DNA of 48,738 nt from positions 1 to 48,738 of the forward strand of contig PLXE01000014.1 in NCBI GenBank assembly GCA_003151335.1. Reading direction: 5' to 3'. Below, piece after piece: positions 5,736 to 23,370 of this stretch (the stretch's first letter is position 1; each line of letters starts with the position of its first letter). The position numbers were made by a program, and so were the translations under genes. Source of the stretch: Acidobacteriaceae bacterium (GTDB lineage Bacteria > Acidobacteriota > Terriglobia > Terriglobales > Acidobacteriaceae). The notes beneath the pieces are model-generated. The model did not search any database. It saw only the letters and a list, made by a program, of their open reading frames with translations, and was not told where the DNA came from.

Positions 5736-5973
5736 CCTACTAAAGCGGAAAGCCGCCAACGCCATCCTGCACGTTACTTTGTTGAGTTCGTCGCACCTCT
5801 GCGGCAAACCTCTATCCGAAAAAGAGGCGACGCGTTTCTTGTGCACCGAAGCGCGTCCTTCAATCATCTTAATCATCTTATTCGTGAGGTTGGTTTGCAC
5901 CAGGGGAAGGTCCCACGCCAGGTGGGTTTCATAGACCGAGCGAGTAATTAGAGGTACTCATCAAGGAGCAGAT

Positions 5974-6669: not shown

Positions 6670-6768
6670 TGCGATTTGCCGCGTCCGCCGCGAATTCCAG
6701 ATCGGCCAATCCCCAGTAGGGCAATTGGCAACTATGTGTACAAGTCCAACCGCGAAGCCCGGACTGGT

Positions 6769-7108
6769 TTATTGGTGACGCGCCTGCTTCACCATCTCAA
6801 CAAACACTTCTCTGGTCTGTGCCGGGTCGCTCACTTCCCACAAGAATGCAACTCGAGTTCCCTTCACGCCATCCTGGGTTTTCAGGCGCAGGTGAAAGCC
6901 CAGACGATCAACTGAGGTCATCTCCGCTTCTTGTGCCTCAATGCCTGCAAACCGCTTGGCGAGCAGGATGAGCGCATCCTTATGGTCGGCATTCATGTGC
7001 TGGAAGATGTCGCTCTTGTGCTCAACCAGCGGATCGGATTGCGCCTGGGATTAGTCCGAAGCCGCCACCCATCCCGTCACGCCGAAGCTTCCAAGTCGAA
7101 CATCGGAT
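6769..7108 (-). pseudogene. Truncated, stop-interrupted 3' relic of a HugZ-like gene
   Basis: Read on the minus strand, this encodes the C-terminal DUF2470 part of a HugZ-like protein, closely matching the end of the intact gene at 23371-24162 (from GFGVMGW-like residues to the C-terminus). At the codon matching Tyr in ASEYSQAES the relic has TAA, and the first two thirds of the gene are missing. The remaining open part (from an internal Met at 6996) reads NADHKDALILLAKRF and continues nearly identically to the stop at 6769. It directly abuts the stop of the large solenoid gene at 7116. It forms the left member of a repeat pair bracketing a 16-kb block. Confidence 0.85.
6777..7108. repeat. 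Left copy of ~330-bp HugZ-3' direct repeat
   Basis: From GACGCGCCTG onward, about 330 bp are clearly alignable, in the same orientation, with 23378-23710; I estimate mid-80s percent identity by eye. Outside these limits the flanks do not match. The intervening segment contains the BREX-like operon and addAB-like genes. Confidence 0.8.
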
Positions 7109-7115
7109 CGTAAAG

Positions 7116-9866
7116 TTATCGTTGAGAGCTACGGCGCGTATCACTCAACGTGCCTGCTAGGCAAATTGCGCGTTCGATCGAGCTCGCGCCGCGTCCTGAG
7201 CATCCGACCCATAGAGGGCAAAAGCTGCGCAGTTTCTTCCCCAAGTTCGTCCGGATTAACCTCATTACGACGACTGCATCCGAACGCTGAAGGAGTGGCT
7301 TCATTGATTCAAATTGATCACCCCAATTGCTGGACCACTTCGTGTGTTCGAAGTGAAGCTCCAAACCGGGCATGCTCTCCGCGAGCCGCTCCTGAATGGC
7401 CGCATCGAAGCGTGCCTGCGTCTCGTCCCCGCCGATGACTGTAATGCAAAGTCGTGTGGTGCTGCGAGAAGTCTCCGGTAAAAGGGTCTGCTGAAAGTGG
7501 GCTTCTTCCCAGCCGCGCAGTGTCCGCTTGAGATCTTCGACAGCATTATCTTGAAGACTGTAAGCAGAAATCCGCTCCACTATGTCAGTTGCCTCGTCTC
7601 GTGCAGAGAAATCTCCAGACCAGAGTCTCCGGTGAAACTCCTCCCGCAAGAACTGTGCTGCTTGTTCGTAGCTACCCGAACGCTCCAGAACGTGCACTGA
7701 TGCCCAAGAGGCCTCGGCCTGGCTCCATGCGGGGTCATACGCCGTACTGTCCCGCATCAGGCCAACGAACTCGTCGATGCAAACTCCCTGGCACGCCAGA
7801 TTTTCGAGTGCGTCTAGCGCCTGCTCTGCAAGATCGGTGTGCTGGGCCGCAATCGCTTCCTCAAGCAGTATCCGTAAATAGCGGAACCGTTTGGTGCGGG
7901 AATGGGAATCCGAGATCGCCCAATTGAACAGAGACGTCCATATCACGGTCGAACGACGCGCAACTTCGGCAGTCATCAGCGATTCCAGCGTTGCACCTCG
8001 GAGCTGAAGTTGAGATAGCGCCAGCTCTGCTGCTCGTTGCGTGCGGTCTGGGTCGACAGCTGCAAGCGACTCTAAAAACCGGCGAAGCAGATACCCCGGA
8101 GGCGAATAACCACTCAAGATTGAATTGGCAAACAGCTCGACTGCATAATCCTGACGAGTGTCGTCGAGAGTTTGAACAAGAGCGAGTGCCAAGTAAAAAT
8201 CGGCACCCTTAAGTAGATCTCCCACCACATATGTTTCGCCTCTCGCCCGCATGTAGCTGACAGCAGGTTCTAAGAGGCTAGCTGCGACCTGAGGGCTTAT
8301 GCTAGTGATAATGCTCTCTGCTAATGCAAGCATTCCGAGACAGTACTGCGCGTGTGCTTTTTCTCCGCGTGCACCCAACGCGAGTTCACATTCCTTCCTC
8401 AGTATCTGCATGCGGCCACAAAAATCCTGCAGCTGCTGCTCTTGTGGGGGCATTGCAATGTCGAACAGACCTCTAAACCCGGCTTTGATCATCGCGAGAT
8501 CTGTTCGGATGATCGATTCGGCTTCCAAATCCGGAGCCTTCAGAAGATCTTCGAGTATCTGAGTGGCAGGTTGGAAGTCGTGCTTCAAGCGTAAGCAGTG
8601 AGCTCGGCGGCGTTGCAATCTTTGAAATCTATCCCGAGAGATTTGATCTTCAGTGAAATGCGCTAGGGAACGATGCAAAAGGTCCAAAATCGCGGCTGCG
8701 TCATCAACCTTGCCCATGCGCAGCTGTTTTGTGCCCCATTCGAGCGCTGTATCAAAGAGATCCGCGTATGCAATCATTTGTGGAGTAAAAAACGTCGCTG
8801 CCGCGCCAGCACGACCCTGCTCACAAAGTGATTCGAACAAGAACTGCGCAGCCCGACGCGAGCACGGATTCAGCTCACGGCCGAATGATCGCAAGTCCTC
8901 TTTCTCGAAGAGGGCAACGATAGATGACGTATTACCCCGTCGCGCGTAGGCAACGATTGCCCCGCAGAGATACCAGGCACGCCTACTCGGGTTTTCACCG
9001 CGAAAATGTGGTTGGGGCTCTTTGTCCTGAAGGACATCAAGAAAACCGGGATGGAAGTAGCTCCTGTGCCGTTGTGCATTAAGGCTTATCAATTCAGTAA
9101 CCATGCTCTCGACCTGCCCGATTTCCAGCGCACCCTGAACCCCGGTTGCCCAGCCGACAATCGCAGTGGTTATTAGGTCGTCTACCACAGTGAAGTCTTC
9201 CAATCCCTCCGGGCGAGATATTTTCAAGGCTGGAGGCTCTGACGCGACAGCTTGAACAGAAGCTATGGTCTCGCGGCTCTCGCTTCCGTCCCCCGCCGGA
9301 TCAATCTGTTCCAGTCCCTTCCAGAAGCCAGGATCCTGCACAAACAGCACGTCTATGTAGAGGTCCACATCGCTAGCGGGGAATGCTCCGCGCAGCCCGG
9401 CAAGAGCATTGGCCAACTCTCGAGATGAAGGTGGGCTGTATTTATGTCGATCAAACCGGCAGTTCTCATGCTGAATCGAGAGAGAATCCAGGAAAGCCGC
9501 CATCATTTCGCGTTTGTGCTTGAATAGGTAACTTCGAAGCGCAGCACCCGCGACAGATTCAGACGGCTTGTGCTGAGCCGCGAGATAGCCGGCCAACTTG
9601 GGCGTAGTCAGGTGCCGGAGCTTGACTGTCCTCATGTGCAGTGTTGCGGAGAGATCGGCGATGGCCTGCTCATGCAAGTCTTCCGTGCCGTCCTTGCTCT
9701 CCCAAAACGCCTGCGCTACGTCAAGGCGCACCATATGAGGCAGGGCCTTCCAGACCGACTGAAAGGTCTGTCGACACATCCTTGGAGTCGCCACGCGAAC
9801 CTCTGAGCACAACGTGTTCTCAATGAGCCTGCCCACGAAGTTTACTGCGCAGAAGTTCGAAGTCAA
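7116..9866 (-). CDS. Large alpha-solenoid protein with C-terminal Rossmann-like domain, unknown function
   Basis: I do not recognise a named family. The ~916-residue protein is almost entirely helical, with repeated Ala/Leu-rich helix pairs from about residue 250 to 780 that look like a TPR-type or other alpha-solenoid. The last 130 residues differ. LCITVIGGDET (about 800), alternating beta/alpha segments, ASDAVVV-like text (SDAVVVMRL) and a final SGRGASSIERAI resemble the small Rossmannoid DUF2325-type fold, but this is a guess from pattern. The frame opens at a TTG (9866). The GTG at 9794, preceded by CAGAGG, or the ATG at 9779, are plausible real starts. It is divergently transcribed from the coiled-coil/BrxD/helicase operon 120 bp away, so a role in the same system is likely. 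Its stop abuts the HugZ relic. Confidence 0.6.
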   Translation of the reverse strand: MTSNFCAVNFVGRLIENTLCSEVRVATPRMCRQTFQSVWKALPHMVRLDVAQAFWESKDGTEDLHEQAIADLSATLHMRTVKLRHLTTPKLAGYLAAQHKPSESVAGAALRSYLFKHKREMMAAFLDSLSIQHENCRFDRHKYSPPSSRELANALAGLRGAFPASDVDLYIDVLFVQDPGFWKGLEQIDPAGDGSESRETIASVQAVASEPPALKISRPEGLEDFTVVDDLITTAIVGWATGVQGALEIGQVESMVTELISLNAQRHRSYFHPGFLDVLQDKEPQPHFRGENPSRRAWYLCGAIVAYARRGNTSSIVALFEKEDLRSFGRELNPCSRRAAQFLFESLCEQGRAGAAATFFTPQMIAYADLFDTALEWGTKQLRMGKVDDAAAILDLLHRSLAHFTEDQISRDRFQRLQRRRAHCLRLKHDFQPATQILEDLLKAPDLEAESIIRTDLAMIKAGFRGLFDIAMPPQEQQLQDFCGRMQILRKECELALGARGEKAHAQYCLGMLALAESIITSISPQVAASLLEPAVSYMRARGETYVVGDLLKGADFYLALALVQTLDDTRQDYAVELFANSILSGYSPPGYLLRRFLESLAAVDPDRTQRAAELALSQLQLRGATLESLMTAEVARRSTVIWTSLFNWAISDSHSRTKRFRYLRILLEEAIAAQHTDLAEQALDALENLACQGVCIDEFVGLMRDSTAYDPAWSQAEASWASVHVLERSGSYEQAAQFLREEFHRRLWSGDFSARDEATDIVERISAYSLQDNAVEDLKRTLRGWEEAHFQQTLLPETSRSTTRLCITVIGGDETQARFDAAIQERLAESMPGLELHFEHTKWSSNWGDQFESMKPLLQRSDAVVVMRLIRTNLGKKLRSFCPLWVGCSGRGASSIERAICLAGTLSDTRRSSQR

Positions 9867-9931
9867 GTCGTTCCGGCAGATATCGCGTGCTCCAAAAGCT
9901 TGGTACTCTTTATCGTCGCACCGCGATTCGG

Positions 9932-9961
9932 GGACAGAACGAGCTGATGCGGGGCTATAAT
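9932..9961 (+). promoter_or_regulatory. Candidate sigma-70-type promoter of the BREX-like operon
   Basis: A perfect TATAAT (9956-9961) lies 25 bp before the ATG at 9987. GGGACA (9932-9937) is 18 bp upstream of it and matches four of six bases of TTGACA. It is correctly placed to drive the four-gene plus-strand operon. Confidence 0.5.
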
Positions 9962-9986
9962 TCCCAATCTGGAGCAGAATGAATCA

Positions 9987-10829
9987 ATGCACGATGAGCT
10001 AAACACGGCGTTTGAGTCGGAGCTTGCGCGTCTTGAACAAGACGCAGAACGACAGCGCAATGACGCTGAACGGGCCGTTCGAGATGCCACACGATGGCAC
10101 AACCTGTGCATGACCGTCAGGCAATCCCTCAAGAAACACTGGTGGGTGAGCGTGATTCGCACGTTGCAGCACGAGTCTGACTTCCTTAGAGCCCAGCGCG
10201 GCTCGTCGCACGCAGAGGTCGAGTTGTTCGAATCTATCTATCGTGCGGCGCGTCAACAGGCAGATGGAATTATGGCGTCGTTCCCTTCGTTGGTTGCAGA
10301 AGAGTGCTCTCGACACAAACTAACGCTCGATGAGACATCTCGACATCCTAGATACACCTTCGCAAACGGTTTCGTAACTGTTGAAGTTCGTGAGTCTTCA
10401 TACAGCGCAGTCATTGCTCCTCGGGACGGGGAGAAGGTTGAGATCGGCGCGGATCCAGAGGCGGTTGTTGAGAAGCTCCTTTCCGAGAAGCGGCGATTGC
10501 TCGAGCGGCCGTTTAACGAATCCAAGTTTCTACATAGGCTGTACAACCATTACCGGGCGATAGCACGCGACAAGAAGGTTGCAGAGGGGGAACCAGTACC
10601 AATCCGCCGTATAACCGCAAGAATGTCTCGGGACATCGAAAAGTTCTCTATTGATGAATTCAACGTCGACCTCGGTCGAGTCGTTCAAAAAGGCGACGCC
10701 TCAGTGGAAGGGAAGGTTCTGGAGTTGAGCCAAACGCGTGATACGAACTCGGGGATGTTGCTTTACGGATTGGAATCGCGAGGCTACATCGGATTTATTG
10801 CATTCAAGGAGGTGGGAAGTGGCCGTTAA
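9987..10829 (+). CDS. Coiled-coil protein of unknown function, first gene of BrxD/BrxHI-like operon
   Basis: This 280-residue protein is not recognised. Residues about 5-45 are rich in Glu/Arg/Ala heptads (LARLEQDAERQRNDAERAVR) and should form a coiled coil. A central mixed region has beta-rich text (VTVEVRESSYSAVIAP, about 130-145). The C-terminal 70 residues contain RMSRDIEKFSIDEFNVDLG and a beta-like tail. It begins 25 bp after a TATAAT box and ends inside the next gene: the GTG at 10819 lies before its TAA at 10827. This overlap indicates translational coupling to the first BrxD-like ATPase and argues that it is a genuine component of the same system. Confidence 0.65.
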   Translation: MHDELNTAFESELARLEQDAERQRNDAERAVRDATRWHNLCMTVRQSLKKHWWVSVIRTLQHESDFLRAQRGSSHAEVELFESIYRAARQQADGIMASFPSLVAEECSRHKLTLDETSRHPRYTFANGFVTVEVRESSYSAVIAPRDGEKVEIGADPEAVVEKLLSEKRRLLERPFNESKFLHRLYNHYRAIARDKKVAEGEPVPIRRITARMSRDIEKFSIDEFNVDLGRVVQKGDASVEGKVLELSQTRDTNSGMLLYGLESRGYIGFIAFKEVGSGR

Positions 10830-12096
10830 TGTGATGGCAAAGCCTGACCCTGCATTTGCCGCGAGGATACTTGAAAGTCTCCGAGGTGGCATCCCTCCGC
10901 AAAGGGGCGTGGAACTCTATTCTGTTGGAAATGAAGAGCTGATGAACGGGATCTGTCGCTTGCATCTTGATGGTCTTCGAAACGGAGGAAGAATACGTTT
11001 CATTAGTGGCTCCTGGGGTGCTGGCAAGACTCACTTTTTCCGGTTACTGGCCGACAAGAGCTTTCAAAGGGGCTGCCTGGTATCTAACGTTGAGCTACGG
11101 GTGGACGACGCGCCGCTGAACAAGTTTGAGCGTGTTTTATTCAGCATCATCAGGAACATCAGCATACCCACGAACCCGATGGACGATCAGCAGGTAGCTG
11201 TTCCTTTTCGGCAGGTCATAGAGGCGGCGCTGCAACGCCTTGGCAATCCGCACAGAGCCGAACAGCCGATTCGCCAGACATTCCTGACAGCTCAGACGGC
11301 TTTCGCTGGCCATCAGGGAATCGACATCGATTTCAAGAAGATCGTACTTGCGTACTGGCAAACCTACGTAGCAGAGGACGCCGATCCCGTCGAACTCGAA
11401 ACTCAGCGTGAGGAGTTGCTGCAGTGGTTCGCGGGTGAAGGGACCATAGGCACGTATCGCAAGAAGTATAACGTAAACAAAATGGCGTCCCGTGAGAACG
11501 CCCGCTTGTTGTTGCAGTCATTGGTGCGCTTCGTCCAAGCGGCAGGATTTGAAGGGATCATCGTATTGTTTGACGAGGCGGAGGGAGCCTATTCGACAAT
11601 GCGGAAATCTGCCTTGAAGGATGCGCACAACAACCTTCTCTCCTTGATCAACAACATGGACAAGATTCCAGGGTTGTTCATGGTCTACGCGACAACTCCC
11701 GATTTCTTCATCGATCCGAAACATGGAATTATTGTTTACGGAGCACTCGCGCAGCGCATCGGAAAAGCCGAAGACAAGATTCCGAGTGCGCTCGATATCG
11801 TCTGGAACTTCGACAAGCTGCAGTCAACCATGGAGGATTACTGCAAGGCAGCGCAAAAGATCCACGCACTTTACGAACTCGGCTTCCCTGAGGCAAAAGA
11901 CCGGCTTGGTTCGCCAGACGAACTGGTTCCTCTCATTCAGGAGTGGGTAAAAGGACATGGGCCGTTTCACGCAGTGCGCGCGTGGCGCGTAGTCGTGTCC
12001 GCAACTGTGAAGTATCTCGACGACAGGGTAGAAGGACGCTCAGCGACTGCATCTGCCGTTTACCAAGATGTAATGAAGCGGTTGCGGGATCAATAG
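10819..12096 (+). CDS. BrxD-like P-loop ATPase (DUF2791 type), first paralogue
   Basis: The protein resembles BrxD, an AAA-like ATPase of type 2 BREX loci. The N-terminal family signature RGGIPPQRGVELYSVG (about 22-37) precedes the Walker A GSWGAGKT (64-71). Walker B is IIVLFDEAEG (about 249-258). YATTPDFF (about 292) is the family's sensor-like segment. The C-terminal VKGHGPFHAVRAW block contacts the next helical region. I place the start at GTG 10819 because a strong AAGGAGG lies 6 bp upstream; the frame is open further back, into the previous gene. Length (425 aa) is normal for BrxD. It overlaps the upstream gene by 11 bp, and the next gene starts 1 bp after its stop. The BrxD-like identity is from motifs; an antiphage role is inference. 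Confidence 0.75.
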   Translation: MAVNVMAKPDPAFAARILESLRGGIPPQRGVELYSVGNEELMNGICRLHLDGLRNGGRIRFISGSWGAGKTHFFRLLADKSFQRGCLVSNVELRVDDAPLNKFERVLFSIIRNISIPTNPMDDQQVAVPFRQVIEAALQRLGNPHRAEQPIRQTFLTAQTAFAGHQGIDIDFKKIVLAYWQTYVAEDADPVELETQREELLQWFAGEGTIGTYRKKYNVNKMASRENARLLLQSLVRFVQAAGFEGIIVLFDEAEGAYSTMRKSALKDAHNNLLSLINNMDKIPGLFMVYATTPDFFIDPKHGIIVYGALAQRIGKAEDKIPSALDIVWNFDKLQSTMEDYCKAAQKIHALYELGFPEAKDRLGSPDELVPLIQEWVKGHGPFHAVRAWRVVVSATVKYLDDRVEGRSATASAVYQDVMKRLRDQ

Positions 12097-12097
12097 G

Positions 12098-13354
12098 GTG
12101 AGCTGCCCACGGTGCATGAACGCGCCCGAGGCGGGCCACAAGTACTGCTGCGGCTGCGCTCAGGAAATCGTAGAGTCGCTGCGTTTCGGAATACCGCCTG
12201 ATGGCTGTGTTCGTGAGCTAACAGTCGGACGGGAACACGAAATATCCTATTTGCTCAACCACCTTTCCGGCACATCTCGATCGCTACTAGTAAAAGCCAA
12301 TTGGGGCGCAGGAAAGACCCACCTCCTTCGCTTGCTGCAAGAAGAGGCGCTCGCCCGCGGCTACATCACCAGCTTCGTGACGGCGGACGCAAATGCGGCT
12401 GTGCGTTTTAACCGAATGGATCAGGTGTTCGGAGCAGCATGCCAGAACATTCAAATTCCGGGCAAGCGGGAAAGAGGGCTGCAGCACCTCCTTGACGTCT
12501 TTGTTGAGGCCTACAATGACGATCCGCTCCGGCCTGGCTTACGTGAGATCAGCAACAACGGCAGGTGGGACTACTCTGAGTTCTTGGCTGCACCTGCGGT
12601 TTTTATAGCCTTGCGAGCTTGGCTATTTGCCGTCCAATCAACTAATGGACACGTGACCAGAAACACAATATTGGATTGGTTCGGCAGCCCTTGGGTATAT
12701 CGAACTCAGCGGCGTGTGCTCTATCGAGAACTCGTCGACCGAGATCGAGCCATGTTCCGCGATTCTCGGGCTGAATGGCAGTTTTATGCGGACAATGTGT
12801 TCTTTTTTCACACAGACGGTCATCGCCAGAGCTGGGATGCACTGAATGACCTGCATGTACTTGCGCAGGCGTTGGGATATGCCGGCCTAATACTACTAGT
12901 AGACGAGTTCGAAGACGTCATTCGGAATCTGGGAAGAATCAATTGGCAGCATGCTGCATTCTGGAATCTTTTCACGATGTTTAGAGGGCAGAGATTCAAG
13001 GGCCAAAGTTATTTCGCGGTAACGCCGGATTTCGAGCAGAGGTGCAAGCGTCTGCTGCTCGAGAAGATGATTGTAGACTACGACTACAACCAGTTCGACG
13101 AGCTCCCTTCATGCCGCATCACGCCTCCTACAGGAGGTCAACTACTCACACTGATCCCAAAACTGGTCGATATACACGAAGCTGCATATGGTTGGAAAGC
13201 TGACGAACCGAAAATCCAATTGACGCTTGCGCGGACTTGCGACGAGCTAGAAAAAAGTGTCATGGCCGATCGCGTCCGAATGACGATCAAGAAGATGGTT
13301 GCGTTTCTCGATGACGTGTATGGTAACCGGCTGAGCCATGGAACACGAACTTAA
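12098..13354 (+). CDS. BrxD-like P-loop ATPase, second paralogue with N-terminal zinc ribbon
   Basis: This 418-residue protein is a second, divergent BrxD/DUF2791-type ATPase. It opens with CPRC (3-6) and CCGC (17-20), a compact zinc-binding knuckle missing from its neighbour. The family signature LRFGIPPDGCVRELTVGRE follows (about 28-46), then Walker A ANWGAGKTH (about 67-75) and Walker B LILLVDEFED (about 264-273). VTPDFE marks the sensor-like segment. The start is GTG, one base after the upstream TAG. Its end overlaps the helicase start by 17 bp. Two different BrxD-like ATPases side by side suggest a hetero-oligomer or two-step loading machine. Classical BREX has one BrxD, so this is a variant arrangement. 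Confidence 0.72.
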   Translation: MSCPRCMNAPEAGHKYCCGCAQEIVESLRFGIPPDGCVRELTVGREHEISYLLNHLSGTSRSLLVKANWGAGKTHLLRLLQEEALARGYITSFVTADANAAVRFNRMDQVFGAACQNIQIPGKRERGLQHLLDVFVEAYNDDPLRPGLREISNNGRWDYSEFLAAPAVFIALRAWLFAVQSTNGHVTRNTILDWFGSPWVYRTQRRVLYRELVDRDRAMFRDSRAEWQFYADNVFFFHTDGHRQSWDALNDLHVLAQALGYAGLILLVDEFEDVIRNLGRINWQHAAFWNLFTMFRGQRFKGQSYFAVTPDFEQRCKRLLLEKMIVDYDYNQFDELPSCRITPPTGGQLLTLIPKLVDIHEAAYGWKADEPKIQLTLARTCDELEKSVMADRVRMTIKKMVAFLDDVYGNRLSHGTRT

Positions 13355-15464
13355 CGCCAGCGTAGCGAGGTCCTTCTTTGGGCGCTTCGCTAACCTCAGG
13401 CAGATACAACAGGCTGCAATCACTCCTATACTTCGCGGCGAAAACGTACTTTTGCTGTCTTCGACCGGCTCAGGAAAAACCGAAGCGGTCGTTGCCCCAA
13501 TCGTAAGCCGGTACTTGGACTTTTTCGCCGACACTGCTGGGACTGTTTGCGTCTATGTAACTCCTACGCGTGCACTTGCAAACGACTTGCGGTCCAGGCT
13601 GAGTCAACCGCTTGACGAATTAAATGTTCGTCTGGGGATTCGCCACGGCGACACGAAAGAGACGCACAAAGAGAAGAAGCCCCACCTTTTGATCACCACG
13701 CCGGAAAGTCTCGACGTTCTGCTCTGCCAATCTGTGCCTTACCTCCGAACGGTGCAAGCTTTGATAGTGGATGAGATCCACCTGCTCTACAACACGCAGC
13801 GTGGCTTTCAATTGTCAGTTCTTTTCAATAGATTGGAGCAGCACTGCGGCAGGAAGATTCAGTGGTGCGGCTTGTCGGCCACAGTGGCGTCCGCTGACAT
13901 GATCTGTAAGTTCCTGTTCCCCGCAGCGAAGCCTCCGGTGGTTATAACAGACCCTTTCCGTCGTGAGCTGCGGTCGCATGTAAGACTTACAACTGACAGG
14001 GAAAGCCTCAAGAATATCTTCCGTCAACTACTCGAGGCTGATACCCACAAACTGCTCATCTTTGCGAACTCACGAAGAGAGTGTGAGTCTGTCGCCGCGA
14101 CTGCCCGCAAGCTCGCACCTCTAGAACACTCTACGTTCGTTCACTATTCATCTCTAAGCCAGGAAGTTCGCCACACGACCGAAAAGGGCTTTTGGACTGC
14201 CGGTACTGCAGCGTGCGTCGCAACCAGTACTCTGGAATTGGGCATAGACATCGGCGACGTAGACGCAGTTGTGCTGCATGGGCCGACCGTGACCCTCGAC
14301 AGCTTCCTACAGAGAATGGGACGCGGAAATCGTCGAACTGAGTTCAACAATGTTGTCTGTCTTACTCGGCTCGATTCGCGACGGCCCCATGTCGAAAGCC
14401 TTGCACATCATGCACTGCTTAACCTTGCCGAGAAAGGCTTCATAGAAGGCTGCGATCCTGCACGAATCTACGGTGCCGCCGTCCAGCAGGTGTTTTCGAT
14501 CCTTGCAAGCAAGAAGGGCGCATACACTCGAGTGGTGGATTTTCTGGCGGCTTTCGACGGGCACTCCCATCTTTCCCGGCAAACCCTGGAGCATCTACTC
14601 GATCATTTGGCCAGTATCGGTTTTCTGCAGCAACATGGATTTCAGAATCGATTCGGTGCGGCAGAGCCGTTTTATGTAGTTTGGGATTCACGCATGATCT
14701 GGGGGAATTTCCCCGTTGGAGCCGAAGATGTTCGAGTAATGTTCAAGTCGCAGGAACTTGGGACGATCCCTGCGTTCAATCTCCTGAGATTAACCCCAAA
14801 TAGCGTCTTTCGATTCGGGGGGAAACTTTGGAGAGTTACAGAACTTTCGCGAGAAGGCATTCAGGTGCTACCCGCGACGAGAACCTCGTCTGCGATTGAC
14901 ATTTCTTACGGGGGAGCGGGATTGGGGTTCTCACCTCAAGTACTTGAAGAGATCCACCGAATGCTATCCACCCAAGACATTCCTAGAGGGAGAATGACGA
15001 AGGGCGATGAGGTGAACCTCATGGCCTGGGTGAGGAGCTTATCGGACTCGTTCGGCAGTTCAAGAATCCCCGAGTGTGGTTCAAATGGCTGCCGATGGTA
15101 CATAACTCTGGCCGGTGCCTATATAAACCGTGCACTGGCAATTCTTACCGGTCAGCCACGGGTCGACTGCGATGACTTCACAATCAGATGTACCGTACCC
15201 ATTAGCTTCTCCCATCTTCCGAAACGGCTCGAGTGTGTTCGTGACGTGATAGGACCTAACTTTAGTCCAGAGGCCGAGCGAACCATTTTCCAAGACATGC
15301 TCCCAGTCGAGATTCAAAACGAAGAGCTTTACGATCAGATCGTTAAGAACCCGGCGACGCAACGGATCTGGGAGCGACTGACACGCTCGGTTGCTGAGGC
15401 ATGTACTATTACGAATCTTTCTGAATTTGAACCGCCGCCCCCTCGGGCTTATTCAACAAGGTAA
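13338..15464 (+). CDS. BrxHI/Lhr-like superfamily 2 helicase
   Basis: This 708-residue DEAD/DEAH-type helicase has Walker A SSTGSGKT (about 36-43), YVTPTRAL (motif Ia, about 73), VDEIHLL (motif II, about 140-146), SAT (motif III, about 179), ATSTLELGIDIGDVD (motif V) and LQRMGRGNRR (motif VI, about 325). This layout is that of the Lhr-related helicases called BrxHI when next to brxD in type 2 BREX. It is much shorter than canonical Lhr (about 1,500 aa). The C-terminal third contains an Lhr-like beta-rich domain but no recognisable nuclease. It overlaps the second ATPase gene and is the last gene of the operon. DNA or RNA unwinding is expected; the target is unknown. Confidence 0.82.
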   Translation: MEHELNASVARSFFGRFANLRQIQQAAITPILRGENVLLLSSTGSGKTEAVVAPIVSRYLDFFADTAGTVCVYVTPTRALANDLRSRLSQPLDELNVRLGIRHGDTKETHKEKKPHLLITTPESLDVLLCQSVPYLRTVQALIVDEIHLLYNTQRGFQLSVLFNRLEQHCGRKIQWCGLSATVASADMICKFLFPAAKPPVVITDPFRRELRSHVRLTTDRESLKNIFRQLLEADTHKLLIFANSRRECESVAATARKLAPLEHSTFVHYSSLSQEVRHTTEKGFWTAGTAACVATSTLELGIDIGDVDAVVLHGPTVTLDSFLQRMGRGNRRTEFNNVVCLTRLDSRRPHVESLAHHALLNLAEKGFIEGCDPARIYGAAVQQVFSILASKKGAYTRVVDFLAAFDGHSHLSRQTLEHLLDHLASIGFLQQHGFQNRFGAAEPFYVVWDSRMIWGNFPVGAEDVRVMFKSQELGTIPAFNLLRLTPNSVFRFGGKLWRVTELSREGIQVLPATRTSSAIDISYGGAGLGFSPQVLEEIHRMLSTQDIPRGRMTKGDEVNLMAWVRSLSDSFGSSRIPECGSNGCRWYITLAGAYINRALAILTGQPRVDCDDFTIRCTVPISFSHLPKRLECVRDVIGPNFSPEAERTIFQDMLPVEIQNEELYDQIVKNPATQRIWERLTRSVAEACTITNLSEFEPPPPRAYSTR

Positions 15465-16092
15465 GCCTCCTTACGCTAGGTCGTTCGCCGCCTAGACTCG
15501 GACTTTAGTCAGGCGTGCGGCACGGAGGTGAGGTGTCAGCCTCGTATTTCCCGCCGGTCGTAGCAGCCCACTTGCCGTTCAGCATAGGGCTTATTGGGCA
15601 GTCGACTACACCCGCGCCTGACCGGATGCGATAAGGGCACGGGCCCAACGCAAGGCGCTTCCCGCGGAAGGCGTGCGTACCAATAAACCTGGATAGACCT
15701 CAATCATCACGTGCTCTCCTCCCGCCATGCCGAGGGCAGGGTCTGACGTATCCGGTATCCCGCTGCACATCCTGCAAAAAGCCGCACAACACCTGCAGAT
15801 CATTGTCTTGACCTGGCGCGAGCAGAATACCAAGCGGCTGGCGCACCGATCATCAGATTGGCTGACTGCTGTGTGCCGAGAGTGGCGCACGCAATCCCGT
15901 AGGTCTAGGTCGCAGAGTAGATCGCTGCTCGAACTTCATGTGAAGAGCTATGTACCAAACGGCACTGCATTGTCGATCCACAACAGATCCCCTACTCCAT
16001 TCCGTTTGTTCGCGGAATTGTTCGGCTGCCCAGGATGAACTGGCCAGACCAACACGTATTGGAAAGCGTGGCCCACAATCGAGTTCTAGGCG
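15465..16092. other. Gene-poor stretch between helicase operon and addA-like gene
   Basis: No convincing complete gene is present in these 628 bp, which lie between two convergent transcripts. The most gene-like fragment is 15727-15840 on the plus strand (LHILQKAAQHLQIIVLT). Its texture recalls the last strand of an SMC/AAA-type ATPase, but there is no Walker motif and the frame soon becomes Arg/Ser-rich. It may be a gene relic. Confidence 0.35.
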
Positions 16093-19000
16093 TCAGGCAC
16101 TGTTGTCAAGCGGCACCTTCTCGGACTCGAGGCGAACCGGGTAAACCTGGGATACGGCGTCTTCCATGCCAACAGCGACCAGTGCACGTTCGTACATCTT
16201 TAGCTGGTGAACATAGGAGCCAGACAGATCACCAAGCTCGACGTCTGTCTTGTAGTCGATGATGTGCCACGATTTCGGATCCTTGAATATGAGATCCATA
16301 ACGCCTGTGATGAGCTGTTTCTTATCGCCGGCATACGTGAATGGTGTTTCGACGGAACGCTCGTACTGAGCCGCTTGCTGCCAGAGTTCAGCTTTCGACA
16401 CTTCCAAAACCGTGCGCACCGCCTGATCGAGAACGCTGCGCAAGTCCGGCTCTTCGACCGAAAGCCACATTGCCAGTCGATATAGATCCGAGTAGTTCGC
16501 ACCCTTGTGGCGCATAGCGTGCTCAAGCAAGCCATGGACAAGCGTTCCCCACGCATGTCCGGCATCAGCCCGGTGGGCTGGCGTGTCGGGACTTACCACC
16601 TTGGACGGGTCGTCCGAGGCGATCTCGATCGACCGGATCATTCGAGCGATCTGTCGTGCCTCGGCCGTAACCGAGGTGATAGACCACGATGGTTGACACA
16701 GAGTGGCGTGGGATAAAGTTCGAGCAATCTCGGCCGCAGCTTGTGCCGCCTTGCCGCAATCCAAAGGCTCGACTGGCAACACCACAGGCGCCGCTGGAAT
16801 GGAGAGCTCCTGCGCCTGCCCAAGAAACTCGTCAAGAACGCCCCAGGCGGGATTCCTCAGATTCCCCGAGCACCGGCTGATAATCAGCATCTCTCGTGCA
16901 CGCGTCGCCGCCACGTATATCAGCCGATCCTCTTCAGCCTGAAGGTAAGGATTTTCAGCGGCTTCGTGAGCCGGCCAATCCGCATGTTCAGCGAGTAGCT
17001 TGTCCTGGTATGAGTTTTCGCTTCTTCGGACAATCTTCAACCACCCGTAAGCCGTCAGGCCACTCCGTTGAATACGCACGTCGACTCGCGAGCTGACCCC
17101 TCCGGCTGGATCGGCCAGGAACACGACCTTTGCCTCCAAGCCCTTAGCCTTGTGAAGATTCATAACCCGCACAACTTCCGTGCGCCCGGGCTCCAGGGGA
17201 AGAGACTCAACTTCGCTCGCGGCTTCCGCGTTGGCCTCCAATGCATCGGCAGCGTCTGCCAGACTTCCGCCACACTCGGCAACTTGTCGAACTCGGTCTA
17301 CCGCATGGAGGACGTCTCCCGCATCGGCGCCTCCAGGAGTAGTCGCTGCCAAGGCCAGGTATCCAGAGTCTTCAAGGATGCGATCTAGGGCAGCTGGTGC
17401 TGGCAACAGGCGGGTCCACCGATAGTATTCGCGCAGTACAGCAAGTGCTGACGAGACGCGGGACACAGGTTTCGTTGCTGCCCCGTCACTCTCGTTGAAC
17501 AGGCTGAACCAGCCCCCTGTCTGCTTGAAGTTGAAGAGTTCGCGATCGCTTATGCCGAATAATGCCCCGCGAAGAACCGCGATGAGGGACACCGGGTCCT
17601 GCGGATCCGCAAGCGCGCGAAGCAAAGTAATCAACGTCTGGACCGCCGTTGACTCCCCGAAAGCACCAGCTCCGCTTACCTCGATGGGTATGTTCATCGA
17701 TTCCAGCGCGTGAGCATACGGCGCGATGCGGTCCCTCTTCTTCCTGGTGAGAATCAGAAAGTCACTGAACCCCCGGCGTCCAGCATCCACCTCTGAACGA
17801 ATATAGACCGCGATCTTCTCGGCATCTTGCGCTTGAATGTCCTTGGGCTCGCAGTTATGTGCGATTGTGAAAACTCCGCCCGACTTCTCTTTGCTATTGG
17901 GGTCCAGTGGTGCGAACTTGGGTGCGTATGGCGTAGGATCGACCGGGAATCGGGTCTCGAACACGTCGTTTGCCCAATGGCAAAGACGAGGAACCGAACG
18001 GAAGTTTCGCGTCAAGGGCAGGACGCGCCCGACTGCCGCATTTTCGAACCGTTTTCGAACGACATTGTAGATGTCGATATCCGCTCTCCGGAAGCGATAG
18101 ATCGACTGTTTCGGATCACCAACAACGAACAGCGCACCCCGGCGTAATGGAACGGTACGCCAATCAGCAGTCTCGCGCTGTCCGGCAGAACACGGGAGAG
18201 TGCAATCCTCTGCTAACCAAAACAAGATTTCTGCCTGGACTGGATCCGTGTCCTGAAACTCGTCAACCAGTAGATACTTGAACTTCTGCTGTAGTGCGTG
18301 TCGCACCAGGAGATTTTCGCGCAGCACACGGGCTGTTAAGTTGAGCAGGTCGCCGTAGTTTAGGGCGTTTACACGCCGTCGCTCCACCGCAGCCTGTTCG
18401 CGTGCTCGAATCAGCAGCGTCATGGAGAGTCGATACACGTATTGGCGCCACTGCCACAGGTAAGGCTGGACAACCTCGGTACGAAAATGCTCATGTAGAG
18501 GTTCGACCAGATCACGCAAACGTTTCTTGTCCGCCGCCGTATCTGCCCAACGGTTCTGCGTAATCTTGGAAGCGCAGTCCCAGGTCTGAAGCAGAGACGC
18601 GATTACAGACGGGCGATCAAGTCGGTGTCGAGATACACGCATCTGCGCGCGGAACTCGCGTGCCTTCTGCTGGATCTTACAGGTCGTGTCATCTTCGATC
18701 TCACTCGGCAGATGATTCTGGAGTTCCTTCCAGAACTTCTGAAGCGCGGCCAGAGCAGGCTTGGGGTCGGGAGAACCCGTTTCGCCAACGGGGAAATCGA
18801 CATCTTCGTTGACGCAAACGGTCGCAAAAGCCGAGTCGAGGTCTTGCGGGCGTACGTCAGCCCCCAGAAGCGCCACAAGGTCAGGATCACCATTCGCTCG
18901 GGCGCTTGTGACGAAATCGCGCCACGACTGTTGCCGCAGTTCCAAGTCTAGAGTTTCGTCGAGCTCGGTGAAGCCCGGAGCCACACCCGATTCCACGGGA

Positions 19001-19377
19001 CGTTCCCGCAGCAGGCGGGCACAGAAAGAGTGAATGGTGCCCGCAAAAAAGCGTTCTAGGTTGGAGAGCGCGGATTCGATTCTGGTGATTCGCTCCGGAT
19101 CCGCAGCTCTGGGGCGGGCATTTTTGCGGGCTTTTTCGAGTTCAGCTTCGAGGGCGAGGTGGAACCGACCGCGTAGCTCAGAAGCAGCCTTTCGCGTGAA
19201 CGTCACGGCCGCCATCTGCTCCAACGGGTAGACTCCGGCTGCAACCCCGGCAGCCATGCGCTCAGCCAGCATCTGCGTCTTGCCGGATCCCGCGCCGGCC
19301 TCCACCAGGATGTTGGCTAGTAGCCCTTCCCGGATTAGTCGACGTGATTCTTCATCAATTGCACGCGAATCATTCAT
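16093..19377 (-). CDS. AddA/RecB-like UvrD helicase-nuclease
   Basis: The 1,094-residue protein has the layout of AddA/RecB: a UvrD-type superfamily 1 helicase with a C-terminal PD-(D/E)XK nuclease. Walker A is EAGAGSGKT (26-34) and motif Ia TFTRKAASEL follows. Motif II is LLVDEFQDTDP, motif III VVGDPKQSIYRFRRAD, motif V NLHKAKGLEAKVV and motif VI LIYVAATRAREML. The nuclease residues are in GVMDL and IIDYKTDV near residues 1028-1044. It starts inside the end of the addB-like gene (8-bp overlap), so the two are co-translated. Such complexes resect double-strand breaks and degrade foreign linear DNA. It could be host repair machinery or part of the flanked block. It is somewhat shorter than Bacillus AddA (about 1,230 aa). 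Confidence 0.9.
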   Translation of the reverse strand: MNDSRAIDEESRRLIREGLLANILVEAGAGSGKTQMLAERMAAGVAAGVYPLEQMAAVTFTRKAASELRGRFHLALEAELEKARKNARPRAADPERITRIESALSNLERFFAGTIHSFCARLLRERPVESGVAPGFTELDETLDLELRQQSWRDFVTSARANGDPDLVALLGADVRPQDLDSAFATVCVNEDVDFPVGETGSPDPKPALAALQKFWKELQNHLPSEIEDDTTCKIQQKAREFRAQMRVSRHRLDRPSVIASLLQTWDCASKITQNRWADTAADKKRLRDLVEPLHEHFRTEVVQPYLWQWRQYVYRLSMTLLIRAREQAAVERRRVNALNYGDLLNLTARVLRENLLVRHALQQKFKYLLVDEFQDTDPVQAEILFWLAEDCTLPCSAGQRETADWRTVPLRRGALFVVGDPKQSIYRFRRADIDIYNVVRKRFENAAVGRVLPLTRNFRSVPRLCHWANDVFETRFPVDPTPYAPKFAPLDPNSKEKSGGVFTIAHNCEPKDIQAQDAEKIAVYIRSEVDAGRRGFSDFLILTRKKRDRIAPYAHALESMNIPIEVSGAGAFGESTAVQTLITLLRALADPQDPVSLIAVLRGALFGISDRELFNFKQTGGWFSLFNESDGAATKPVSRVSSALAVLREYYRWTRLLPAPAALDRILEDSGYLALAATTPGGADAGDVLHAVDRVRQVAECGGSLADAADALEANAEAASEVESLPLEPGRTEVVRVMNLHKAKGLEAKVVFLADPAGGVSSRVDVRIQRSGLTAYGWLKIVRRSENSYQDKLLAEHADWPAHEAAENPYLQAEEDRLIYVAATRAREMLIISRCSGNLRNPAWGVLDEFLGQAQELSIPAAPVVLPVEPLDCGKAAQAAAEIARTLSHATLCQPSWSITSVTAEARQIARMIRSIEIASDDPSKVVSPDTPAHRADAGHAWGTLVHGLLEHAMRHKGANYSDLYRLAMWLSVEEPDLRSVLDQAVRTVLEVSKAELWQQAAQYERSVETPFTYAGDKKQLITGVMDLIFKDPKSWHIIDYKTDVELGDLSGSYVHQLKMYERALVAVGMEDAVSQVYPVRLESEKVPLDNSA

Positions 19378-22300
19378 GCTCGCCTAGCCTCCGGTAATTC
19401 TCGAGCTTGGGATCTTCCAGCTTCTCCTCAAGCTGCACGTTTTTGTATACCGCGCACCCTCGGCCATAGGAACAGAATTTGCAGTCTTTCTCATTCGAAC
19501 TCTGGGTGAACTCACCGTTGGTGATCAAAGTTCGCAGGTCTCGCATGACGGCAGTGATATCTGTCAGTTGAGGAGCATTAATCCTGTGACGTTCCTGACG
19601 TCCTTTGTGGGTCGGAAAGTAATAAACGCCAGCTTCCACCTTTGGGCTTTTATACTTGGCCTTTAGCAATTCGACTGCAGCGATCCCGTATAGGGCATGC
19701 TGGAGGCGCCGGCCCCCGTCGAACGTTCCTTTCCATCCCTCCCGCCAGAAACCGCCCGTCTTATAGTCGAGAACCTCAAACGATGCTTTGCCGACCTTGT
19801 CAATCCGATCAATCCGGCCAGCGATCCGGATTGTTAGGCCGCCTCCCAGATCCAGTTCTACAGGTTCCGGCCTCGCCAGAGGCTCACTACCGTCCTGTAG
19901 CGGCCGTCCAAATGACACCTCAAAACCGATTGGGGTCGAGTCCGAGTTGTCCGCTTCTGCTTCCAGGAACAGTTCGACATCCGCCACGAAATCCTTCGAC
20001 TCGCGCTCGAAGATCTCCGGCGTCGCGGCAGGTATTTCCTCATTCAATTCACGAAGGCGTGTCTGCGTCCGAGCAATCAGCCAAGCTTTGTCTTCGGCGT
20101 TCGGGCGGCGATTTCCATCACGTGCGCGCCGCAATAACGCGGCATACAAGTCGTGCAGTTCGGAGCCACGCGTCAAAGGATCGAGCCACACATCTTTATC
20201 GCGTTCAAGCTCATCGACAGGTTGTACCCCCAACCCTCGCTTAAGAAAGAATCGGAAGGGACATTGCGCTGCCCCTTCTAGCTCCGTTACTGAGAATGTG
20301 TTCATGGGTGAGCACGGATCGAGAACGGGACCTGCTTCGGGTACATAACCGTCGAACTCTGTGAATTCGGCTGACTGCCGATGCGCTTCGGCTGCACGTC
20401 CCTGTGCCACACCTTGGAAATTGGCATTGACCAGCGCGATTCCATTCTTTCCAGTATCGACGACACTGCGCAGCCACCATTCTCCGGAGCAAATGGCGGT
20501 GCCGCGCTCGTTTGGTACTGCAGATTTCGGTTCTCCCAGTGCCGCTTTCATTTCCGTGTATGAGAGCTTGGGATTTCCTTGCTGCAGCCGGAAGGCTTGC
20601 AGCATGATCCAGGAAGCGTATGTCTCGCGGTACTCTCGAGTGTCTCGGCACGAGTAGCTAAATGTGGCCGATACCGCCGACGACGAGAGCCGGTTCAGGA
20701 ATGCGTAAACCGATTCATCGATCCGGTCCTGAGACAATCGCAGCTCGTCCGAGATGCTCTGGCGCTCGCCATCCAGCAATACGGCATCTTCGGCAGCTGC
20801 AGGAAACACCCGTCCTTCCTCAAGGCCCACAACGAAGAGGTGCTGCCGGCCGGCAAAACCACATTGTGAGAGGCTGCATAAGTAAAGATGTCCTGGACGA
20901 GGACGCTCAGAAGCCACCTGAAGTGACTGCACACGTTCACGAACGAAGCGCAAGGCTTCTGACAGGCCACAGGAAAATGCCCCTAACGCACGGAGTTCGG
21001 CAATGTAATCCTGCAGCGCCGCGGCTGCCCGATGGTCAAGCGCACTGCCGCGCGCGGTTGCGCGTTCGAGAAATTCGAGCGTGGCGGTGACTACCGTCTG
21101 CAGCTCAACCTTTCGCTCTTGGTCCGGCTCTGGAACTGCTGCCACCAGCCCCACAATCCAGTCTCGAACGCTCGATGTCAGTTTTACCTTTTCTTCCGCA
21201 TAGGCACGATCGTCTTCAGAAGCCTCATCATCGGCAGCACGCGATTCGTAGTTCTTGAGCAGACGGGCAAAGGAGAGGCCATATGTCGCGCGTCCCCATC
21301 CGGCTCCTGCACGGGCCAGCTGCCGTGCCGCCTGTCCCGCACTGAACCTAAGATCTTCATCCACTCTAAGGTCGCCCGACTGAAGCAGTCGGCGAAAATG
21401 GCTGGCGGAGAAATCCGTTTCGATCCAATCGCACAATCCAATCAGGGCCCTGCCAGGCCGTGTAAAGGCAGCAGGGATGCCGGTGCCGAGTGTTACTGGC
21501 CAGTCATGGCGCAGTGCTTTTTCCCAGATCAATGCGACATGGGCATCAGACGGACAAGCAATTTCGATCTGGTCCAATGGCATGCCTGCGGCAAGAATGC
21601 GACGGAAGACCTCCTCAATCTCGGCTTCACGCCCGCCGGCGTTGAATAGGCTGATTTTCGTATTGCCAGACGTCTGCGCTGGAGTCGCTGGCGGACTCAT
21701 CAGAAACGCCAGCGGGTTCGTCGAGAAGTCGGCCTTAACCCTGTCTGTCGTCTGAGAGAGCAGTCGCCGAGGCGCCGGGTAATCACAAACTTCGAGCGCA
21801 CGCGGATGGATCCGTTCGCCGCAAACGGATGCGATGAGCCGCCGCTGGGCTGGGCTCCAAATGGTGTCCGGTAGCTCCGTCCAGCAGTCCTCGGGCTGGA
21901 TCGGACACCAGGACGGATGTTGCAGTGCTTCCTCGTATACCGTCGCCATGTCGCCGCGTTTGTGTTCTTCGAGAAAACGCTCATACGCTGACATCAGAGC
22001 AACCAGCTCCTGGTGCTTAGCGACCGACGAGAACCACTCCGGCTTCAATATCTCGGCACGAATGCTCGCCATGCGCATCTCGCGCACCGTTGACCACAAC
22101 GCCTGCGCCATCGTGGGGTGCTCTGCAAGGGGTCGAAAGTAGCCAGGTTGCACCGAAAGGTCGTGCAGAAGGCGCATCATCAGTGCGGGACCAAGCCCTT
22201 CTTCGGAAGGTTCGATCCCATGTTCAACCAGGAACGGCCCCGCCACGCGCAGTGCGACATCGAGCGGCGTTACGAATCGCAGGTTCAGCCAGCTAGTTCC

Positions 22301-22420
22301 CTCCAGTGTGAGGCGTTCACCAAGGGTCCTGCCAATTGCGTGTGAGGGGACGAAGACCCATTTATTTCGGGTCGGATACGAGGCACAAAGATGCTTTAGC
22401 TGTTCGACGAAGGGGTCCAC
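19370..22420 (-). CDS. AddB-like PD-(D/E)XK nuclease with Fe-S cysteines
   Basis: This 1,016-residue partner of the downstream addA-like gene resembles the AddB/RexB family. Its N-terminal helicase-like half lacks a canonical Walker A (PSHAIGRTLGERL stands there), which suggests a structural or recognition role. The C-terminal nuclease domain shows VLDYKTGGFW (about 880). The four cysteines expected for an AddB 4Fe-4S cluster are visible: one in AAQCPFRFF (about 716) and three in DCKFCSYGRGCAVY (about 980-990). The start is a GTG with AGAGGT about 7 bp upstream. Gene order addB-addA and the overlap are as in known AddAB operons. Confidence 0.87.
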   Translation of the reverse strand: MDPFVEQLKHLCASYPTRNKWVFVPSHAIGRTLGERLTLEGTSWLNLRFVTPLDVALRVAGPFLVEHGIEPSEEGLGPALMMRLLHDLSVQPGYFRPLAEHPTMAQALWSTVREMRMASIRAEILKPEWFSSVAKHQELVALMSAYERFLEEHKRGDMATVYEEALQHPSWCPIQPEDCWTELPDTIWSPAQRRLIASVCGERIHPRALEVCDYPAPRRLLSQTTDRVKADFSTNPLAFLMSPPATPAQTSGNTKISLFNAGGREAEIEEVFRRILAAGMPLDQIEIACPSDAHVALIWEKALRHDWPVTLGTGIPAAFTRPGRALIGLCDWIETDFSASHFRRLLQSGDLRVDEDLRFSAGQAARQLARAGAGWGRATYGLSFARLLKNYESRAADDEASEDDRAYAEEKVKLTSSVRDWIVGLVAAVPEPDQERKVELQTVVTATLEFLERATARGSALDHRAAAALQDYIAELRALGAFSCGLSEALRFVRERVQSLQVASERPRPGHLYLCSLSQCGFAGRQHLFVVGLEEGRVFPAAAEDAVLLDGERQSISDELRLSQDRIDESVYAFLNRLSSSAVSATFSYSCRDTREYRETYASWIMLQAFRLQQGNPKLSYTEMKAALGEPKSAVPNERGTAICSGEWWLRSVVDTGKNGIALVNANFQGVAQGRAAEAHRQSAEFTEFDGYVPEAGPVLDPCSPMNTFSVTELEGAAQCPFRFFLKRGLGVQPVDELERDKDVWLDPLTRGSELHDLYAALLRRARDGNRRPNAEDKAWLIARTQTRLRELNEEIPAATPEIFERESKDFVADVELFLEAEADNSDSTPIGFEVSFGRPLQDGSEPLARPEPVELDLGGGLTIRIAGRIDRIDKVGKASFEVLDYKTGGFWREGWKGTFDGGRRLQHALYGIAAVELLKAKYKSPKVEAGVYYFPTHKGRQERHRINAPQLTDITAVMRDLRTLITNGEFTQSSNEKDCKFCSYGRGCAVYKNVQLEEKLEDPKLENYRRLGEHE

Positions 22421-22672
22421 TCATGTACCTCTTGCTTAGCGCCAAGCTGTGGGGCTGAGCACAAGAAAGCTCGGACCAGAGTGATGTAACGAACCTATGC
22501 CCAGCGTGGAAACGATTTTGACGCAGGGCGGGGGCCGTGGCCGTGCGCAACATCACCGCAGGATGTGACCATTCGACAGCTTTCACATCGAAACGGAAGA
22601 GGACGCCGACACACGACGTCCGCTAATGAGCAGAACAGAGAGCAGAGGGGGTGTCCGATTGGCAACCATTCA

Positions 22673-22828
22673 TTAGCTTGCTCCCTTCTGTGATTCTCTC
22701 CGTAGCTCTTTAACGACTCGACCCAGTTCGTCTACGACCCTGTTCCAGTTGCCTTTTGAAACTGATCTGCCCCAGTTGACTCGAGTTGATGGCCCCGTTA
22801 TCAGCCTGCCGCCGTCATTGAGATCACT
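22673..22828 (-). CDS. Small ORF without canonical start (possible +1 frame continuation)
   Basis: On the minus strand, codons ending at the TAA (22673-22675) read GGRLITGPSTRVNWG, then GNWNRVVDELGRVVKELRRE. This is coding-like, with a clear amphipathic helix, but the frame has no ATG, GTG or TTG between the upstream in-frame stop and this text. Only a CTG (22807-22805) or ATA is available. It begins exactly where the 77-aa gene (22824-23057) stops, in the +1 frame. Either it is translated from a rare start, reached by a +1 shift at AAG-TGA, or it is a small pseudogene. Confidence 0.35.
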   Translation of the reverse strand, partial: SDLNDGGRLITGPSTRVNWGRSVSKGNWNRVVDELGRVVKELRRESQKGAS

Positions 22829-23057
22829 TCATCTGCTCTTCGAGAATTTGGACGAAGGCTCGCCGACTCTTTTTGACCGAATTCGTTTTGTTTCCCTTCG
22901 GCCACCACTCGACACTACCTCTTCCCATCAGCAGGTTTCCTAGAAGTTCATCGCCGCGTCGGACTTCGATCGAGAGCGAATTCTCGCTCTTGCGTTTACT
23001 TAGATCCATAAACCCTGGAAACATCACTGGGACTTTGGTTTGCTTGATCTTTTTCAT
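22824..23057 (-). CDS. Small unknown protein (77 aa)
   Basis: This short frame starts MKKIKQTKVPVMFPGFMDL, continues with a beta-rich middle (SIEVRRGDELLGNLLMGRG) and SVEWWPKGNK, and ends in a basic helix. The regular alternation of residues and the tight ATG with the AGAC/AAAG-rich leader make it look like a genuine small protein. The GxVEWWPKGN plus C-terminal helix pattern reminds me of widespread small hypothetical proteins, but I cannot name a family. It lies about 400 bp upstream of the addB-like gene on the same strand. The 313 bp between it and the HugZ-like gene (23058-23370) contain nothing I can support, and 22421-22672 is also empty. Confidence 0.6.
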   Translation of the reverse strand: MKKIKQTKVPVMFPGFMDLSKRKSENSLSIEVRRGDELLGNLLMGRGSVEWWPKGNKTNSVKKSRRAFVQILEEQMK

Positions 23058-23370
23058 CGGAAGAGTCTTTCTGTGAGTTCGTTTGGTTACCTGGCTGCTT
23101 CACTACTGTGTGACGTACTACGCATAGGCCTCAGTTCTGGTCTTATCCCGTCCTGATAAGTTGCGCCTAACGATGCGTCGTTATGGGCGGAATTCTACAC
23201 CCTCGAATCTGAAGGCTTCACTGACAGTAAACACCACGTTCGTGCACCTCGGCGCTGCGTGCTGTCTAGGACTTAGCCCCGCCTGGTTATGCATGTGAGG
23301 TGATGGTGCCCTTGAGCGCAGCCTTGTTTGGCCCGTACGCTCTGGGCGGGAGCGCCGTTCAACGGCATCA

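Follow-up and report, generated by a model that had tools for sequence, protein, structure and literature searches.

Can a pair of gene types familiar from bacteriophage exclusion (BREX), a BrxD-type ATPase and an Lhr-type helicase, form a system without the rest of BREX? This question is raised by a four-gene cassette in the window analyzed here, a 48,738-nucleotide stretch of an Acidobacteriaceae bacterium (GenBank assembly GCA_003151335.1, contig PLXE01000014.1). Its genes encode a 280-amino-acid (aa) protein (A), two BrxD-like ATPases (B and C), and an Lhr/BrxHI-like helicase (D). The initial annotation, made from the window alone, proposed a stand-alone, undescribed defense or DNA-processing system. 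A conserved and separate unit was indeed found, and it is apparently undescribed, whereas a role in defense is something we infer from its relatives. No description of the four-gene set was found in the literature searched, outside which subscription papers and most preprints lay, and this is not proof of novelty. We lean slightly toward regarding the cassette as a self-contained mobile system, a third kind built on the BrxD ATPase and Lhr-type helicase pair, beside BREX types 2 and 6 and Shango.

Recurrence and joint inheritance of the four genes

The four genes lie where they were initially annotated (Table 1), in a genome of 4.65 Mb, 121 contigs, and completeness 100. All had been described as overlapping, but only C and D overlap, by 17 nt. 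The longest reading of B runs from GTG 10738 to 12096; homologs and spacing point to ATG 10834 as its likeliest start, leaving 4 nt between A and B and 1 nt between B and C. None of the proteins A to D was found to have a nuclease domain.

Searches of 72,556 plasmids with C by tblastn returned two records, from Aulosira laxa and Desulfomonile tiedjei, and the same two were returned with A. A pattern scan of genome contigs revealed the cassette in two metagenome-assembled genomes (MAGs), from a Phycisphaerae and a Kiritimatiellae bacterium. The order A-B-C-D was identical in both plasmids and both MAGs, and the Desulfomonile cassette stands alone on a 27-kb plasmid. In the window's own phylum, a six-row profile of A alone matched 8 of 396 genomes (window included). 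A 13-row profile of A matched 13 of 343 genomes in the phylum to which the Phycisphaerae MAG belongs (MAG included), which we take to be Planctomycetota. In the phylum of the Kiritimatiellae MAG, the MAG itself was the only match among 337 genomes, and no new locus was added there. B adjoins A at 18 of the 19 new loci (7 + 12), and 14 of them have the full A-B-C-D order. The five-gene neighborhood that the initial annotation suggested surveying, with a divergent 916-aa protein as its fifth member, was not seen at the other loci fetched; A-B-C-D recurs, in most of the genomes searched without pglZ.

Counting a partial locus in genome G048, there are 25 loci with A, and 19 of them hold complete cassettes. 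Among these, D is split into two frames at L049, two additional frames separate C from D at L055, and the contig start truncates A at L046. Three loci are incomplete through a contig end (L009, L048, L052). Pairwise distances were compared across 17 of the 19 complete loci, the cut L046 and the split L049 being left out. The four members of the cassette gave concordant distances in all six pairs (rho 0.78–0.84; 0 of 2000 permutations for each). The four genes are inherited jointly, and this agreement speaks to inheritance, not to interaction. They are a conserved unit, present in several bacterial phyla.

A chance neighborhood was rejected as an explanation on the basis of the recurrence at new loci and the agreement of distances. 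Housekeeping genes were likewise rejected because the spread is patchy, with a B-like ATPase in 3 of 61 relatives and A at the phylum-wide frequencies given above. The three relatives are the window's own genome, G048 with its partial cassette, and G031, in which the ATPase belongs to a Shango copy carrying TerB_N, TerB, and TerB_C. The cassette is a movable unit. It is carried by plasmids, spread patchily, and located in the window in an island for which an empty site exists. Viral contigs gave two weak partial matches and a further search none; D gave three partial matches against 50,697 phage records.

Relationship to BREX and Shango

The initial annotation saw no PglZ-type phosphatase in the window. 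PglZ, sought as PF08665, gave no match in the complete genome to which the window belongs. Among whole genomes, 17 hold a full cassette; nine of these were searched, and PglZ was absent from seven, including the window's, so that homologous cassettes do not require pglZ. The exceptions were G449 (234.5 bits, on a contig other than that of the cassette) and G118, where a 538-aa frame, presumably a PorX-like protein, scored 24.4 bits (25.1 with neighbors) against a cut-off of 25. PglZ was also absent from G188, G048, and G031, which were searched although they have no full cassette. It is present on the Aulosira plasmid, where the cassette sits directly after a BREX set of PglZ, BrxD, and helicase, and absent from the Desulfomonile plasmid, only the plasmid being searched.

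BREX-2 PglX (NF033451) is likewise not required: of 18 genomes or records, one (G465, on another contig) gave a match above the cut-off of the model. Matches below the cut-off occurred in 14 of the 18, compared with 8 of 14 control genomes, and G545 has a partial match of 146 bits, also below it. This model sees type 2 PglX only, and a 1337-aa frame beside the Aulosira PglZ scores just 29.7 bits. PglW and PglY/BrxC were not found among the 20 window proteins in general scans, and no genome-wide search was aimed at them. The Pfam scan covered these same 20 proteins, all from the first 38.5 kb of the window. The view that the cassette stands alone and lacks a BREX core thus held beyond the window. 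The NF033451 match in the window's own genome (30.7 bits) lies inside a DISARM locus on another contig (L099, contig C31). This locus encodes DrmA and DrmB (5.1e-171 and 7.2e-93 to 7s9v), and upstream of them are genes for 1224-aa and 1321-aa proteins, the latter with a weak N6-methylase match. For a 140-aa piece of the methylase of the window's own genome, no solved relative was found.

In the brxD-brxHI dyad of type 2 and type 6 BREX, an Lhr/Ski2-like helicase likewise comes after an ATPase of the BrxC/BrxD family; in Pseudanabaena, the dyad adjoins a PglZ that is named BREX-6. However, the dyad has one ATPase, whereas the cassette has two of separate lineages together with A. Unlike type 2 BREX, the cassette lacks pglZ and pglX, and its proteins form their own branches in both trees. 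In the comparison with BREX profiles that had been suggested, B, C, and D matched BrxD or BrxHI models, while A matched none.

The annotation of B and C as BrxD-like ATPases stands at the level of the family, which Pfam (BrxC_BrxD) and PADLOC both recognize. The top PADLOC model was BrxD for B (113.6 bits) and C (61.8 bits), with SngB second for both. The scores with NCBIfam BrxD, 110.9 and 63.7 bits, fall far below its cut-off of 350 bits. B contains GSWGAGKT (Walker A) and LFDEAE (Walker B), and a pattern search detected Walker A-type and Walker B-type motifs in all 38 rows of B and C. The window's C has an extra N-terminal CPRC...CCGC double-CxxC stretch (12098-12160), missing in four aligned homologs, which could be a small zinc ribbon. 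In a Foldseek search with an AlphaFold2 model of C, archaeal ORC2 (1w5s) ranked first and Drosophila ORC-Cdc6 third (E 0.02-0.05). BrxC ranked sixth, and with this weak model (predicted local distance difference test, pLDDT, 62.4) all matches had E above 0.001.

An ATPase tree was built from B and C of 19 loci, seven BREX BrxD, and seven SngB sequences. As in the helicase tree, the reference sets were small and mostly plasmid-derived. BREX BrxD (100/99) and SngB (100/100) formed branches separate from B and C. The C rows formed a single branch with moderate support (85/78), and six subfamily-I B rows fell weakly on the BREX/Shango side. B and C of L057 were long, uncertain branches, and several rows had an unusual letter make-up.

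The assignment of D as an Lhr/BrxHI helicase was borne out by PADLOC, in which BrxHI scored 338 bits (2.3e-101) and SngC came second (3.7e-81), although D branches apart from BREX BrxHI. Pfam gave DEAD, Helicase_C, and a weak WH_Lhr match. The motifs GSGKT, DEIH, LSAT, and QRMGRGNR were found in the window's D, and a Walker A-type motif in all 17 D rows. The patterns for motif II (DE[AVIC]H), SAT, and motif VI missed 4, 3, and 3 of the 17 rows, respectively, and these misses may reflect variant spellings. Among solved sequences, the D profile best matched 5v9x (1.2e-54) and 7lhl (1.1e-53), which we take to be Lhr helicases (PDB title: ATP-dependent DNA helicase). Lhr has a stand-alone housekeeping role; D, in contrast, is operon-bound and patchy. 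In the helicase tree, the 17 D proteins lay on one side of a 100/100 branch and all 13 references (five BREX, seven Shango, one Deinococcus protein) on the other. Judging from their own tree branches, B, C, and D are not simply BREX BrxD and BrxHI.

A appears to be a protein family unrecognized by any of the four libraries tried. The window's copy had no match in Pfam, PADLOC, or NCBIfam, and the 22 A homologs had none to PHROGs or NCBIfam at E<=0.001. Pfam and PADLOC were run on eleven A proteins, the window copy and ten homologs, with a threshold of E<=1 for the ten. Those ten gave scattered Pfam matches, all under the cut-offs, and two weak PADLOC matches (E 0.02 and 0.045). An AlphaFold2 model built from three sequences (pLDDT 85.2; predicted template modeling score 0.70) begins with a helix of about 48 residues, as the annotated coiled coil would give, followed by more helices and a four-stranded sheet; at the C terminus, helices precede two long strands. 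By the order of helices and strands in the model, the C-terminal part is likely a winged helix. Foldseek of this model against PDB and BFVD returned nothing at E<=0.001. Short of this threshold were PadR (E 0.38) and the C-terminal domain of Cdt1 (E 0.87), both winged helices and both with a target TM-score of 0.42. M1 is the only residue common to all 22 A homologs, so that conserved polar residues do not form a set like that of an enzyme; G201, F225, and D228 are nearly invariant. At L048 (4850-6763), the A homolog lies within a 637-aa open frame, either a fusion or a false upstream extension.

Shango, which the initial annotation missed, is an equally close known system and the nearest tested one. 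It is likewise a small operon of partner (TerB-like SngA), ATPase (SngB), and helicase (SngC), and it is reported to lower phage plating and protect cultures (PMC10250203). The PADLOC models of SngB and SngC match B, C, and D, but below BrxD and BrxHI. No TerB match was found in the window's A (Pfam) or in 10 A homologs. The partners are unrelated, the cassette has two ATPases, and D lies on another helicase branch. A plasmid of Deinococcus psychrotolerans (L069) holds a possible further BrxD-helicase system; the 17 kb viewed carry no pglZ annotation. Its BrxD-helicase genes occur twice in tandem (3984-17170), the first set having genes for 851-aa and 451-aa proteins before it and an HNH gene after it. 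It differs from the cassette in having one ATPase per unit and these 851-aa and 451-aa partners, and it groups with BREX in the trees. The 451-aa protein did not match A.

A possible mode of action and alternative readings

Kinship with BREX and Shango parts, plasmid carriage, and patchy spread suggest, by analogy, that the cassette serves in defense. A tentative scheme, to which we give somewhat less than even credence, is autonomous, nuclease-free defense in which two paralogous ORC/Cdc6-like ATPases and the adaptor A would load the Lhr-type helicase on invading DNA, a bacterial origin-recognition-like machine directed against phages or plasmids. B and C would form a mixed ORC/Cdc6-like AAA+ assembly, and A, with its long helix and probable winged helix, might link this assembly to DNA or to an invasion signal. 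On recognition, the assembly would load or switch on D on the foreign DNA, and unwinding or remodeling by D could stop foreign replication or expose the DNA to host nucleases. The loader idea follows a proposal, in PMC12839542, that BrxD of type 2 BREX loads BrxHI.

A DNA maintenance or repair module, acting in replication restart or lesion processing and carried by plasmids and the island only incidentally, is rather unlikely. In its favor, a helicase and ORC-like ATPases are parts found in DNA processing generally, the neighbors listed at other loci are mostly metabolic, and A has no conserved polar set pointing to a toxin or nuclease. Against it stand the very patchy spread, the carriage by plasmids, and the location in an island that is specific to the strain and shared with other conflict genes; moreover, BREX and Shango provide the best-scoring defense models for B, C, and D. 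A variant of Shango, with the TerB protein swapped for A and the ATPase gene duplicated, would account for the common superfamilies of the ATPases and helicases and for the shared partner-ATPase-helicase order. It is nevertheless improbable, as alignment of 22 A with seven SngA proteins by hhalign gave a probability of 0.1%, SngB and SngC have their own branches, and the Shango helicases group with those of BREX, not with D.

We give still less credence to a BREX remnant or add-on that depends for its function on a BREX core located elsewhere in the same cell. The Aulosira arrangement, PglZ on another contig in the genome of locus L012, and the PglX matches of G465 (elsewhere in the genome) and G545 (partial, under the cut-off) are consistent with it; the lack of PglZ in the window's genome and the others counted above, and the position of B, C, and D outside BREX BrxD and BrxHI, argue against it. 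The initial annotation counted the divergent 916-aa helical-repeat protein, 120 bp from A in the same island, as a fifth component, which we consider highly improbable. Its open reading frame (ORF) exists, but none of the ORFs at the other cassette loci that were fetched matched it by blastp. It matches 3 of 61 relatives, namely the window and G015 and G031, the latter two without the cassette and over the N-terminal ~170 residues only (frames of 187 and 171 aa), which suggests from sequence that this stretch is a separable domain.

Several observations weigh against a self-contained defense system. The case for defense is indirect, running through relatives, plasmids, patchy spread, and the island, and interaction among A, B, C, and D is likewise something we infer. 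The winged helix of A is a prediction from topology, and the C model is weak (pLDDT 62). B rows do not form a single branch (3 changes). A-B-C occurs without a visible D at L057 (6.8 kb searched) and L054 (1.1 kb of contig left), and L022 has A without B, C, or D. Neighbors were surveyed at 14 other loci chosen for long flanks from the 18 other complete loci and L057 (132 genes), with 107 genes of 10 regions in the same genomes as a control (14 intended, four contigs being too short). The best 25 of the 117 Pfam families near other cassettes were mostly metabolic, as were several neighbors checked individually. PADLOC families numbered 160 near cassettes and 48 in controls; the best 25 of each were mostly the same generic kinases, and a conflict-gene neighborhood like that of the window is not evident at these other loci. 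Among the matches listed, type I methylase/specificity models and RtcR-type regulators, with two members each, were found near cassettes only.

If the cassette is a self-contained system, at least three separate systems share a single ATPase-helicase core. Within type 2 BREX, the BrxD-helicase pair is puzzling, and the cassette is a natural minimal version of this pair, with four genes and no methylase, PglZ, or nuclease domain found. It is therefore suited to direct tests of the effect of BrxD-type ATPases on their helicase.

The genomic island and neighboring genes

The cassette lies in a 16.3-kb island flanked by direct repeats (Table 1). In comparisons with eight further genomes from the genus, of which two are <80% complete, 7089-23370 gave only short DNA matches of up to ~130 bases, whereas the flanks matched well (left, 96% over 2.4 kb in G003; right, 90% over 5.6 kb in G008). 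The empty site was found in G005 (L083), where the upstream stretch runs straight into an intact CREG gene. No integrase was found among seven island proteins scanned with Pfam. The G+C content of the cassette is 53.0%, compared with 57.8% and 56.1% on its two sides.

Table 1. Coordinates of the cassette, the island, and neighboring features in the window
Feature	Position	Strand	Description and basis
Left direct repeat, 313 bp	6776..7088	+	Matches 3' part of CREG/DUF2470 gene; 84% identical to right copy
Island, 16.3 kb	7089..23370		916-aa gene, cassette, AddAB-like pair
916-aa protein	7116-9866	minus	No Pfam match; divergent from A
Gene A	9987..10829	+	280 aa; modeled with helices in the N-terminal half, then a four-stranded sheet, then helices and two strands in winged-helix-like order; new family
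Gene B, ATPase 1	10834..12096	+	BrxC/BrxD family, putative ORC/Cdc6 type; Pfam 4.1e-47; motifs; homolog-placed start
Gene C, ATPase 2	12098..13354	+	BrxC/BrxD family, lineage separate from B; Pfam 8.7e-21; tree
Gene D, superfamily 2 helicase	13338..15464	+	Lhr/BrxHI type; PADLOC, 5v9x profile match, tree
AddAB-like pair	16093-22420	minus	UvrD/RecB/AddA-like helicase with PDDEXK_1; PD-(D/E)XK AddB-like protein
Right direct repeat	23378..23690	+	Within intact CREG/DUF2470 gene (23371-24162, minus strand)
SMC-type protein	24337-26442		LmuB/ASRP-like
ThiF and Prok-E2_D pair	28192-29723		Ubiquitin-like conflict genes
Toxin-antitoxin pair	32170-33788		DUF6088 and AbiEii
Fused ORF	33793-35370		HsdR N-terminal/ResIII part joined to group II intron maturase domain

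Within the island, the AddAB-like pair is convergent to the cassette. It was rejected as a fixed partner, there being no blastp match near other cassettes. Similar pairs occur on plasmids of Salinibacter (pSR116) and Rhizobium, and PD-(D/E)XK and UvrD genes follow Shango on Methylorubrum pCMU01, as a PD-(D/E)XK gene does in Polymorphobacter.

Downstream of the island are the SMC-type, ubiquitin-like, and toxin-antitoxin genes listed in Table 1, and the cassette of the window lies in a conflict-gene neighborhood. The single ORF at the end of this series is possibly, from its domain order, a restriction gene cut by an intron. An AbiEi/AbiEii pair is also located near the cassette on the Desulfomonile plasmid.

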